From NCBI GenBank assembly GCA_012032135.1, contig JAAURS010000003.1:1-36648 (forward strand): DNA of 36,648 nucleotides, written 5' to 3'. The notes below the pieces were generated by a model. The model had not been told where the DNA came from. It made no database searches and saw only the letters and a list, made by a program, of their open reading frames with translations. This DNA is from Acaryochloridaceae cyanobacterium RU_4_10 (GTDB taxonomy: Bacteria; Cyanobacteriota; Cyanobacteriia; Thermosynechococcales; Thermosynechococcaceae). A program made the position numbers and the translations under genes. How positions within the stretch are numbered: the first letter of the stretch is position 1; every line of letters begins with the position of its first letter. Positions 155 to 4,605 of the stretch are shown here, one piece after another.

Positions 155-565
155 TTATAAACTGAGTCCTGTCAAAAATCCAAGTAGTTTAGTTGCAAGA
201 TTACCACCCACTCCGATCAATATTCCATATAAAACATCTCCAGCAGCTTTAATAGCATGATTATTCGGACTAGTCGATTTAAGTTGAATTTCAATGTCTG
301 AAATTTTAGAGTTCGCATGATTACGAGCTTCATGAGTTAGAGAGAGATTTGGCAACTCACGTTTAAGATCTTGAAGAAAATTATTCAGATCGATAGATCC
401 TTGATTCCATATCTGTTGATCATGCACAATATTTTTTGAATGTGAACCAACGGCACCTGCCTGATTCACCTTGGTGCTTTTATCTACGCCAGTGACAAAG
501 TAGCCCTTTTGTTCAATATAGTCACCTTGTACAAAGTTGACATTTTTATCCTCTTGTCTGCTCAT
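155..565 (-). CDS. Small cassette protein, N-terminal GDxIxQxGxFxxGV motif and C-terminal hydrophobic Gly-rich helix region
   Basis: 136 aa ORF with SD-like GAGG upstream; located 27 bp after the stop of the 593-1060 gene. Confidence 0.75.
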   Translation of the reverse strand: MSRQEDKNVNFVQGDYIEQKGYFVTGVDKSTKVNQAGAVGSHSKNIVHDQQIWNQGSIDLNNFLQDLKRELPNLSLTHEARNHANSKISDIEIQLKSTSPNNHAIKAAGDVLYGILIGVGGNLATKLLGFLTGLSL

Positions 566-592
566 TGAAATACCTCACGTTTTAAATTGTGA

Positions 593-1060
593 CTAGCCAA
601 GCCTCACTCCATTTTCAAATAGTCCTGTTTGATTTATAATATCTCCTCCAGGAATATTAAACGTATAATTTACAGGCACATCCCGGTTATTCATTACTTC
701 AATAATTTTGTTAATGATTGAGTCTATAAGACCTTGGTCTTGTGATGAAATCAACCTTGCTCCTCCAGAATTAGTTTCTATTGCAAGACCATATTTATTG
801 GTCTTAGTCATTCGCTCTAAAATTCCCGACGCAGATAGAATAATCACAATTCCTGTAAACCATTTATAAGCAGACACGTCTGGATTTGTTTTAATCCATT
901 CAAATCCTAGCCAGCCGAGAAAACCACAGAAAATAATAAAAGGTATTTTAAATAGATAGGTTGGCTTTAGTCTATATTTGCCAACACTAGTGATGTTTCT
1001 GATTTGATAAATTGTTGAGCCTAGAGTAATAGTATTATTAGTAATTGCCAGGGTACTCAT
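593..1060 (-). CDS. DUF6232-like membrane protein with C-terminal GDxIxQxGxFxxGV motif
   Basis: 155 aa; N-terminal small beta region, two hydrophobic TM segments, resembles DUF6232 family from memory. Confidence 0.65.
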   Translation of the reverse strand: MSTLAITNNTITLGSTIYQIRNITSVGKYRLKPTYLFKIPFIIFCGFLGWLGFEWIKTNPDVSAYKWFTGIVIILSASGILERMTKTNKYGLAIETNSGGARLISSQDQGLIDSIINKIIEVMNNRDVPVNYTFNIPGGDIINQTGLFENGVRLG

Positions 1061-1167: not shown

Positions 1168-1254
1168 GTCTAACGGCTTGGGCGTCAGCGGTGGCAAATA
1201 TTTTCGAGTCACCACCAGAGTGTTGAGGCCATCCGCTGCACGCCCTGGTTAGAC
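1168..1254 (-). other. attC recombination site (attC-1)
   Basis: GTCTAAC (1168-1174) ... GTTAGAC (1248-1254); arms GGGCGT-CAGCGG-TGG / reverse complement GGGCGTGCAGCGGATGG with unpaired G and A on one arm only. Confidence 0.85.
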
Positions 1255-1466: not shown

Positions 1467-2465
1467 TTATGGCTCCTTGAATAGCTTCATATAAAATCTC
1501 GCGCCATCGTTACGAATATACTCACCTTCTAAATCACCGTTTGACAACAGATTTAATGCTGCTGTTCCGGTCTCACCTCCAATACTTTTATATTTTAGAG
1601 ACAGAACTTTCCCGTCAAAACTTCCTTGACTACTTGATATGAATTTGTCAGACAAATCAACTTCCTCCATGGAGATATCAGATCCTGTCTGCTTAATAAT
1701 ATATGTTAATTTTTCCTTGCTTTTATATGATCCAGCTATATTTGGGATAACTCCTATCAAGTCCTGTCCAACAACTGCAACTTGACCGATCAAGTTAGAA
1801 TTCTTATCTTCAATCGTAATCTTGTCAGTTATATTTGTTAAGATTAACGTCTTCGGAGTAATTGAAGTACTAGAGCCATCGCTGGTTTTAGCAATGCGGA
1901 TTGTCATAAAATAAGAGTTACTTATGGTAAGGCTATCTGTTTCATTGACTGATGAGCCATCAAGATTAAGCACCTTTACAGATAAGTCTCCATCGAAAAA
2001 ATTATATCCAGCAACTTGAAGATCTTCAGTAACAGTCCCAATTTGTGTAAGATCAACCGTCTTAGGATTGGTTGCGCATACAAATGGAGAGTTATAGGGA
2101 TTTTCCCTAAGAGGTAGCTTCACTTGCTGTGCAACTAAATTTCTAAGATCGATCAGTTGAGAACGTGTTCTTCTAATTATAAAATCAATATCACATCTAA
2201 ATTCTTGTCCTATAGCATTACTAGTTTCATTTAGAATATTGGGAATATCTTTCTTGACAATACTATCAGCTTCTTTTCTCCAGGCAGCGGATTCTCTACC
2301 TAATTTCGTTAACTGCTGATCTAAATCACCGGACAACTTTTCTAATGTTTCCCTCCAGGCATCAGATTGGGATGCAAGTGTATCGATAGCTCTGTCAATA
2401 CTACCGATAAATTTATCTGCTTTTTTTCCAAGGCCAAAAAATCCAAGTATTGCGTCTATAAACAT
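1467..2465 (-). CDS. Cassette-encoded protein: N-terminal hydrophobic plus coiled-coil region, C-terminal beta-rich region
   Basis: 332 aa ORF between the two attC sites, same strand as other cassette ORFs. Confidence 0.75.
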   Translation of the reverse strand: MFIDAILGFFGLGKKADKFIGSIDRAIDTLASQSDAWRETLEKLSGDLDQQLTKLGRESAAWRKEADSIVKKDIPNILNETSNAIGQEFRCDIDFIIRRTRSQLIDLRNLVAQQVKLPLRENPYNSPFVCATNPKTVDLTQIGTVTEDLQVAGYNFFDGDLSVKVLNLDGSSVNETDSLTISNSYFMTIRIAKTSDGSSTSITPKTLILTNITDKITIEDKNSNLIGQVAVVGQDLIGVIPNIAGSYKSKEKLTYIIKQTGSDISMEEVDLSDKFISSSQGSFDGKVLSLKYKSIGGETGTAALNLLSNGDLEGEYIRNDGARFYMKLFKEP

Positions 2466-2564: not shown

Positions 2565-2651
2565 GTCTAACGGCCTGGAGTTCAGGGACGGCCCGTCAGT
2601 TTGTTGATTGTGCAGTCTGTGTCAATCCGTCCCTGCAACTCGGTGTTAGGC
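2565..2651 (-). other. attC recombination site (attC-2)
   Basis: GTCTAAC (2565-2571) ... GTTAGGC (2645-2651), 87 bp; arms GAGTT-CAGGGACGG / reverse complement GAGTTGCAGGGACGG with unpaired G in the same position as attC-1. Confidence 0.85.
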
Positions 2652-3636: not shown

Positions 3637-4605
3637 ATGGCTGCACAGCCTCAAAAAATTTTGGATCGATTGCGCGATGTCCTTCGCCTAAAACACTATG
3701 CTTATCGAACCGAACAATCCTATGTAGACTGGGTGTACCGCTTTATTATTTTCCACAATAAACGCCACCCCAAAGACATGGGTGTGCCGGAAATTGAAGC
3801 CTTTCTGACTCATCTAGCCGTCCAACGAAAAGTCGCAGCACCCACTCAAAATCAAGCCCTCAGCGCACTGATCTTTCTGTATCGTCACGTCCTGCACCAA
3901 GAGATTGGTGAAATCCATGCAGTCCGCGCCAAACAATCTCGATACTTGCCCACTGTCCTCACCCATGCCGAAGCGATCGCCGTTCTGAACCAGCTTTCTG
4001 GCGTACACCAAATAGTAGCAAAACTGTTATATGGCAGCGGACTCCGCCTATCCGAAGCATTGCGGTTGCGAGTGAAAGAGATTGATTTTGCTCAGGCTCA
4101 ACTGGTCGTACGCGACGGCAAAGGTGGCAACAGTCGAATCACCATGCTGCCCGCTAGTATTGTCGATCCCCTCCAAGACCATCTTCACCATGTTCGACGA
4201 CAGCACCAACAGGATTTAGCACAAGGATACGGTTCTGTTTACTTACCCTATGCCCTAGAACGCAAATATCCCAATGCCGATCGCCAATGGATTTGGCAGT
4301 ACGTGTTTCCATCCGAACGCATTTCTCAAGATCCGCGCAGCAGCGTTGTCCGACGCCACCATCTAGACGAAAGCGGATTGCAAAAAGCAGTGAAACAAGC
4401 AGCATTCTCAGCCAAAATTGACAAACGAGTGAGCTGTCATACCTTTCGCCATAGTTTTGCAACACAGCTATTACAGAACCATTACGACATTCGCACCGTC
4501 CAAGAATTACTCGGCCACAAAGATGTGAAGACAACTATGATTTATACCCACGTTCTTAATAAGGGTGGCCGAGGCGTTCTCAGCCCTTTGGATACCTGTG
4601 CTTAG
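3637..4605 (+). CDS. intI: Integron integrase (tyrosine recombinase)
   Basis: 322 aa; IntI-specific insertion ([41 protein letters not shown]), catalytic motifs [36 protein letters not shown]-terminal [10 protein letters not shown]. Confidence 0.95.

Follow-up and report, generated by a model that had tools for sequence, protein, structure and literature searches.

The closest described systems are bacterial gene neighbours whose products carry matched sequence elements. In the accounts of Dyrka et al. 2020 given in PMC7889193 and PMC8086366, pairs with a bacterial amyloid signalling sequence (BASS) are defined by an NLR, usually together with a BELL protein, and as PMC7889193 presents them, the membrane effector carries the motif at its C-terminus. 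The same 2021 review posed NLR-independent bacterial signalling amyloids as an open question (PMC7889193). In EAD systems, neighbouring genes are joined by matched modules, and adjacent copies are closest to each other (Kaur et al. 2020, PMC7159879; 2021, PMC8195603).

We analyzed a gene pair on contig JAAURS010000003.1 of Acaryochloridaceae cyanobacterium RU_4_10; hereafter, the window refers to the whole 36,648-nt stretch of DNA. The pair has the following features:

593..1060, minus strand: gene 1 (P0002), DUF6232 membrane protein with a C-terminal tail motif, 155 aa (PF19744, E=4.2e-11, and AF2 model)
806..946, minus strand: predicted TM hairpin of P0002, residues 39-85 (AF2 helices 39-58 and 63-85)
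605..646, minus strand: motif copy 1, GDIINQTGLFENGV, P0002 residues 139-152, C-terminus (translation; tail pLDDT ~52 in the AF2 model)
155..565, minus strand: gene 2 (P0001), motif-plus-helical partner protein, 136 aa, without a Pfam family (SD-like GAGGT at 572-576, minus strand)
485..526, minus strand: motif copy 2, GDYIEQKGYFVTGV, P0001 residues 14-27, N-terminus (translation)
401..472, minus strand: P0001 linker, KVNQAGAVGSHSKNIVHDQQIWNQ, with a similar GQAGAVG.A.SDNN.F stretch in the partner at L019; matched, with the helical domain, by part of the PADLOC PDC-M14B profile
158..394, minus strand: predicted helical C-terminal domain of P0001, residues 58-136, with a Gly-rich hydrophobic end (PDC-M14B partial match and low-confidence model)

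P0002 scores 43.7 bits against PF19744, above the gathering score of 27.4, which bears out the DUF6232-like identity proposed in a preliminary description of this DNA. That description had also reported a GDxIxQxGxFxxGV motif common to the facing termini, and the minus-strand translations reproduce it: P0002 ends ..GGDIINQTGLFENGVRLG and P0001 begins ..VQGDYIEQKGYFVTGVDKS, the two copies being identical at 8 of 14 positions in an alternating pattern. The 27-nt intergenic gap (566-592), with the SD-like element inside it, agrees with the spacing and ribosome binding site given there. The TM segments it had assigned to one protein correspond to the predicted P0002 hairpin, and the Gly-rich hydrophobic C-terminus it had seen in P0001 is modelled as helical at low confidence. 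P0001 found no family in Pfam or NCBIfam profile searches. The PDC-M14B profile of PADLOC matched it partially (E=1.5e-5, residues 40-116, 77 of 267 profile positions) and not over its full length. Neither protein has an EAD domain by Pfam, and the Pfam, NCBIfam and PADLOC profiles detected no enzyme, NLR or known toxin in the pair.

In arrangement, the pair resembles BASS NLR-BELL pairs: the genes are adjacent, one protein carries a short Gly/Asn-rich motif C-terminally and the other carries it N-terminally, the copies are matched within a locus, the carriers are mainly multicellular bacteria, and one partner is membrane-associated. The components differ. The NLR is absent, P0002 being a DUF6232 protein and P0001 a 136-aa protein without a family, and a BELL domain was not recognised with a set of profiles that included no BELL one. 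The C-terminal copy is borne by DUF6232 with its TM hairpin and the N-terminal copy by a small helical or TM protein; the position of the BASS effector (BELL, CHAT or TIR ending in the motif) is thus held by DUF6232, which has the hairpin and no CHAT or TIR match in Pfam. The likeness is one of motif arrangement, and the amyloid character of the window motif is predicted by analogy. The BASS analogy drawn in the preliminary description fits a possible mechanism, with a short motif shared by adjacent genes at their facing termini, but membership is unsupported because the NLR is absent.

Taken alone, the window pair provides moderate evidence for this likeness. The local score between the P0002 tail and the P0001 terminus is 40; when the latter was shuffled 20,000 times, 20 of the shuffles scored at least as high (p=0.001). 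When the whole proteins are compared with no positional prior, 236 of 5,000 shuffles reach the same score (p=0.047). Among the 54 ORFs of the window, P0001 is the best match to the P0002 tail, and the runner-up scores 28. The likeness was rightly noticed at the outset, yet a single locus could not prove it; the relatives make it secure.

A single-sequence search with P0001 returned no relative in 292 cyanobacterial genomes, and PF19744 and a home-made profile of 19 sequences were far more productive. Loci were gathered with these two profiles over cyanobacterial genomes, plus one genome-contig scan. For scanning contigs, no part of the 19-sequence profile was sufficiently conserved; a three-sequence profile gave six loci, five of them from the window's own clade, and the phage records searched gave no match. 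The sample comprised 42 distinct long-form DUF6232 loci of at least 80 bits, mostly from cyanobacteria and one from Bacteroidota. The partner was defined mechanically, as the nearest ORF downstream of the DUF6232 gene that was on the same strand, was 100 aa or longer and lay within 160 nt, and we compared the last 45 aa of DUF6232 with the first 45 aa of this neighbour.

Across the 42 loci, DUF6232 tails scored a mean of 64.6 against their own partners and 29.7 against the neighbours of other loci, while the maximum of 20,000 permutations was 41.4. For 22 representatives with less than 50% core identity, the corresponding means were 58.5 and 27.0, and the own partner ranked first in 14 of 22. 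The other termini of the same proteins gave no signal. A comparison that set the own partner against any other DUF6232 tail (6/22) was put aside, since conserved residues on either side of the motif confound it.

This matching could be produced by shared local composition, unrelated to pairing, if the motif were a generic cyanobacterial linker placed before helical domains. Many single proteins do have similar Gly/Asn-rich stretches ahead of these helical domains, such as GDYIQQQGSFGVGVNKG in L096 and NQSGNFGIGHISGG in L104. The matching is nevertheless specific to position and locus: shuffled partners of the same composition were rejected in 38 of 42 loci (L016, L059, L071 and L078 failed or were marginal), and pairs drawn across loci score half as high. 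The linker reading is already largely refuted, and we regard it as highly improbable.

Nor does divergence of both proteins explain the matching away. The similarity matrices for tails and for partner N-termini correlate at r=0.78, and a partial Mantel test that controls for the DUF6232 core and the partner domain leaves r=0.52 (permutation maximum 0.16). With the motif accounted for, no correlation is left between the tail and the domain of the partner (r=0.03). In the Pfam-based sample, 23 DUF6232 genes are tailed, and 20 of them have a matched partner, which none of the 17 tail-less genes has (Fisher p=2.6e-8). We also scanned 457 adjacent same-strand ORF pairs from the fetched loci, in which terminus-sharing matches consisted of DUF6232 pairs, including L118, and five others; the five are low-complexity, coiled-coil or spurious-frame cases, none convincing. 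The two-gene motif-coupled module put forward for the window is thereby supported: the pairing of motifs is seen in about 40 loci, is locus-specific and is confined to tailed DUF6232 proteins.

One of the largest examples, evident without statistics, comes from Trichormus (Anabaena) variabilis ATCC 29413: on its plasmid B, WP_011316652 (SIKVGKNIGSPLNTGHIGGDVVNQV) and WP_011316651 (SIKIGKNIGSPSNTGYIGGDVINEV) are identical at 21 of 27 motif positions. At L048 (3001-3369, the same locus as L016 1477-1845), the DUF6232 frame is broken before the tail, and the tail, GDIINQSGSFGTG, can be read in a different frame next to an intact partner gene; the break reflects either decay or an assembly error. 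L180 (2-1827) holds a weak candidate for a motif pair with a different first gene, a 460-aa ORF ending TASTISNSTVAASGSGGTVSQ followed by a protein starting SIINGDISGSTVGVTGQNGS.

Most partners carry a helical domain of one type, type A (LAEAAxEIQxLLxQL..ALKAGGxxAL..NPxV), and eight carry a second helical domain, type B (..LLPLITKxFGLG). In profile comparison, P0001 reached a probability of 57% with type A and did not match type B. Its domain thus appears to be a different or strongly diverged helical type with a Gly-rich hydrophobic end. The nearest DUF6232 relatives of the window have type A partners that carry the same GDxIxQxGxF motif. In one Saprospiraceae locus (L049), the partner is EAD11 (PF19964, E=2.5e-15), the only partner with this domain. 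On plasmid pEMTOL03 of Emticicia oligotrophica, a DUF6232-like gene (25.0 bits, just below the Pfam cut-off, and 42 bits with the home-made profile) is directly followed by a 75-aa partner whose motif is matched (z=8.2) and which has one hydrophobic, TM-like helix. As partners comprise types A and B, the window type, EAD11 and the single-TM form, the output part is exchanged among loci that keep the motif matched.

The motif has no Pfam match. In composition, it has about twice the usual G, N and S, is high in V and is low in L, A and P. Outside the pairs, types A and B occur in 59 and 44, respectively, of 120 genomes of one cyanobacterial order, at the C-terminus of larger proteins and usually preceded by a Gly/Asn-rich stretch resembling the motif. 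The preliminary description had set against its own proposal a ubiquitous tail with no co-occurrence in adjacent genes. Larger cyanobacterial proteins do contain related motifs immediately before the same helical domains, but co-occurrence in DUF6232 pairs is near-strict.

The motif-plus-helix unit ends pentapeptide/TM proteins, an AbiTii protein (L106 895-1860; PF18864, E=7.8e-53; type A), a CHAT protein (L137 470-1678; type B) and a ROC/COR-EAD7 protein (L117 1492-2601; type A). Cyanobacterial pentapeptide/TM proteins of the PDC-M14B-like kind (PADLOC) share this C-terminal order of motif and then helical domain with the pairs; they differ in being single large proteins, with no part of the unit placed on a DUF6232 neighbour. 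With EAD systems, the DUF6232 pairs have in common adjacent genes with matched copies; in addition, the L049 partner carries EAD11 and, among the motif-plus-helix proteins, that of L117 carries EAD7. The element shared within the pairs, however, is a motif of ~20 aa and not a helical or alpha+beta EAD, and the pairs lack a MoxR-vWA, GAP1 or STAND core.

The window's own genome encodes, on contig 43 (L151 1495-2145), a HEAT-repeat protein whose C-terminal end is the motif followed by a type A helical domain, so the module family is also present elsewhere in this genome. At L148 (868-2443) and L149 (1035-2586), in two genomes of one genus, a DUF6232-HEAT ORF overlaps by 53 nt, in another frame, with an ORF encoding HEAT, motif and type A, an arrangement that could be a frameshifted fusion of the module. 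L078/L148 had the look of a natural fusion, but two frames overlap there by a conserved 53 nt, and it does not serve as Rosetta-stone evidence.

Codons were used to assess what keeps the copies alike. Over 39 loci, identical motif residues share a codon in 260 of 519 cases, against a codon-usage expectation of 220 (z=3.7). This excess comes largely from a few loci (L050, 19/21; L054, 18/21; L067, 24/26; L042, 14/20). At L067 (1501-2599), both the DUF6232 tail and the N-terminus of its partner contain a roughly sevenfold expansion of a VSGN tetrapeptide, encoded by near-identical codons. Most other loci have no codon excess, and the window pair shares 2 of 9 compared to 4.8 expected. Since identical residues mostly lack codon sharing beyond expectation, most of the similarity is held at the protein level. 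The pattern indicates recent copying between neighbours in some loci and protein-level maintenance in most.

These data bear on whether the likeness is a by-product of duplication, in which a copy of the 3′ end of DUF6232 became the 5′ start of the following gene and the two are kept alike through gene conversion with no functional need. Okeania and Trichodesmium are the window's closest named relatives (DUF6232 ~60% identical), and there the likeness extends upstream to (M)NNQDKxxNY and starts at an internal Met codon of DUF6232; the partner gene may once have begun as a copy of the DUF6232 3′ end. This extension and the codon identity at L050, L054 and L067 are what such a by-product would leave. 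In most loci, the window included, the absence of codon excess instead indicates that DNA exchange was not recent and that protein similarity persists; moreover, the motif is kept where the output domain is exchanged, and tail-less DUF6232 genes have no such partner. After testing, this explanation ranks low, as does the generic linker, and we consider it improbable.

The AF2 model of P0002, built with seven sequences (pLDDT 75, pTM 0.56), predicts four strands, the TM hairpin, two strands, a helix and a low-confidence tail, in this order. PDB sequence searches returned nothing significant, and a PDB fold search with the DUF6232 model returned nothing at E<0.1; a PH fold is therefore not claimed, although the order of strands, TM segments, strands and helix would allow it. 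The DUF6232 protein of L050 weakly resembles the 'cyanobacterial TRADD-N associated 2-TM' family (E=0.0017, below the cut-off), which is a lead only. We also modelled P0002 and P0001 as a fusion in which TAG and TGA are read as residues, a modelling device that carries no claim of read-through. Both motifs were of low confidence in this model (pLDDT ~20 for the partner copy) and did not pair, a result that neither supports nor excludes a structure formed on assembly.

Instead of an amyloid, the two motifs may build a conventional beta complex, such as a small beta-solenoid or an intertwined oligomer, that tethers a soluble helical adaptor to the membrane protein; the pair would then be a stable complex of two subunits with no switch. 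The same matching would be expected of it, and the (VSGN)n repeats of both L067 proteins would fit a regular beta-solenoid. We think it unlikely, because the motif is short, rich in Gly, Asn and Ser and of low confidence in both models, more like motifs that order on assembly, and because no globular beta domain is predicted.

Our preferred reading, to which we assign a probability of roughly 0.6, is that the two proteins make up a signalling module at the membrane and are joined by a homotypic motif. The constant component would be DUF6232, a small membrane protein with a short C-terminal tail that is flexible until triggered. Its neighbour would be the variable component, with an N-terminal motif followed by an exchangeable output or adaptor domain, in the window a helical one with a hydrophobic Gly-rich end. 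DUF6232 would sense something at the membrane, upon which its tails would cluster and template the partner motif by beta-stacking, probably in an amyloid-like manner, and the output domain would thereby be concentrated at the membrane.

The steps of this proposal are not equally secure. The sequence data establish the order of the genes, the match between the motifs and their joint evolution locus by locus, the co-occurrence of tail and partner, and the exchange of output domains. A homotypic physical interaction between the two motifs is very probable. Amyloid-type templating is favoured by the composition, shortness and disorder of the motif and by analogy, and we put it at about even odds. 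We lean towards DUF6232 as the sensor side and the partner as the output side, following the constant/variable logic of conflict systems; the reverse polarity, with DUF6232 as output, could also apply because in BASS pairs the C-terminal motif belongs to the membrane effector. Involvement in defence or regulated cell death is a guess that could fall either way, and its sole, indirect pointer is the fusion of the motif-plus-helix unit to AbiTii, CHAT and ROC/COR-EAD7 proteins. More tentatively, and with slightly less than even confidence, we suggest an NLR-independent amyloid-motif system of cyanobacteria and Bacteroidota in which DUF6232 templates exchangeable partners via a locus-specific motif, the copies being kept matched by selection and occasional gene conversion.

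Together, these observations point to an uncharacterised two-protein signalling module that resembles amyloid-motif immune pairs without their usual receptors. The pair and its roughly 40 natural variants constitute a concrete, testable candidate for the question of NLR-independent signalling amyloids (PMC7889193). Specificity can be measured directly with the natural sets of tails and partners, the exchanged output domains and the tail-less controls. DUF6232 was not mentioned in the literature searched, with subscription papers and supplements outside the search and an earlier description possible; for this family, which has no described function in that literature, the module would be a first functional hypothesis.

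P0002 and P0001 are both encoded on the minus strand, on the cassette side of an integron integrase. The integron features of the window are:

3637..4605, plus strand: integron integrase IntI (TIGR02249, E=4.6e-136)
2565..2651, minus strand: second attC, on the integrase side of the first cassette ORF, GCCTAAC...GTTAGAC (DNA fold z=-3.3)
1168..1254, minus strand: attC parting the pair's cassette from the first cassette, 87 nt, GTCTAAC...GTTAGAC (DNA fold z=-5.2 vs shuffles)

The pair had been described as one integron cassette. IntI and the proximal attC are in place, but the distal attC would be off the contig, whose final 131 nt begin with GTCTAAC and do not fold as an attC, so a single cassette is demonstrated on one side only. 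A small gene pair on mobile DNA, whether integron or plasmid, would also suit a toxin-antitoxin-like arrangement in which DUF6232 sequesters a membrane-active partner via the motif and releases it upon damage, as would the hydrophobic end of the window partner and the TM helix of the Emticicia partner. We judge this distinctly unlikely, given that the gene order does not discriminate, TM segments are missing from most partners and the profile searches recognised no toxin family.

Other genes lie beside the pairs. In the window, the first cassette ORF (1467-2465, minus strand, 332 aa) matches no Pfam or NCBIfam family over the cut-off, and at L150 (2739-4001), a CHAT-like gene is directly upstream of a DUF6232/partner pair on the same strand.
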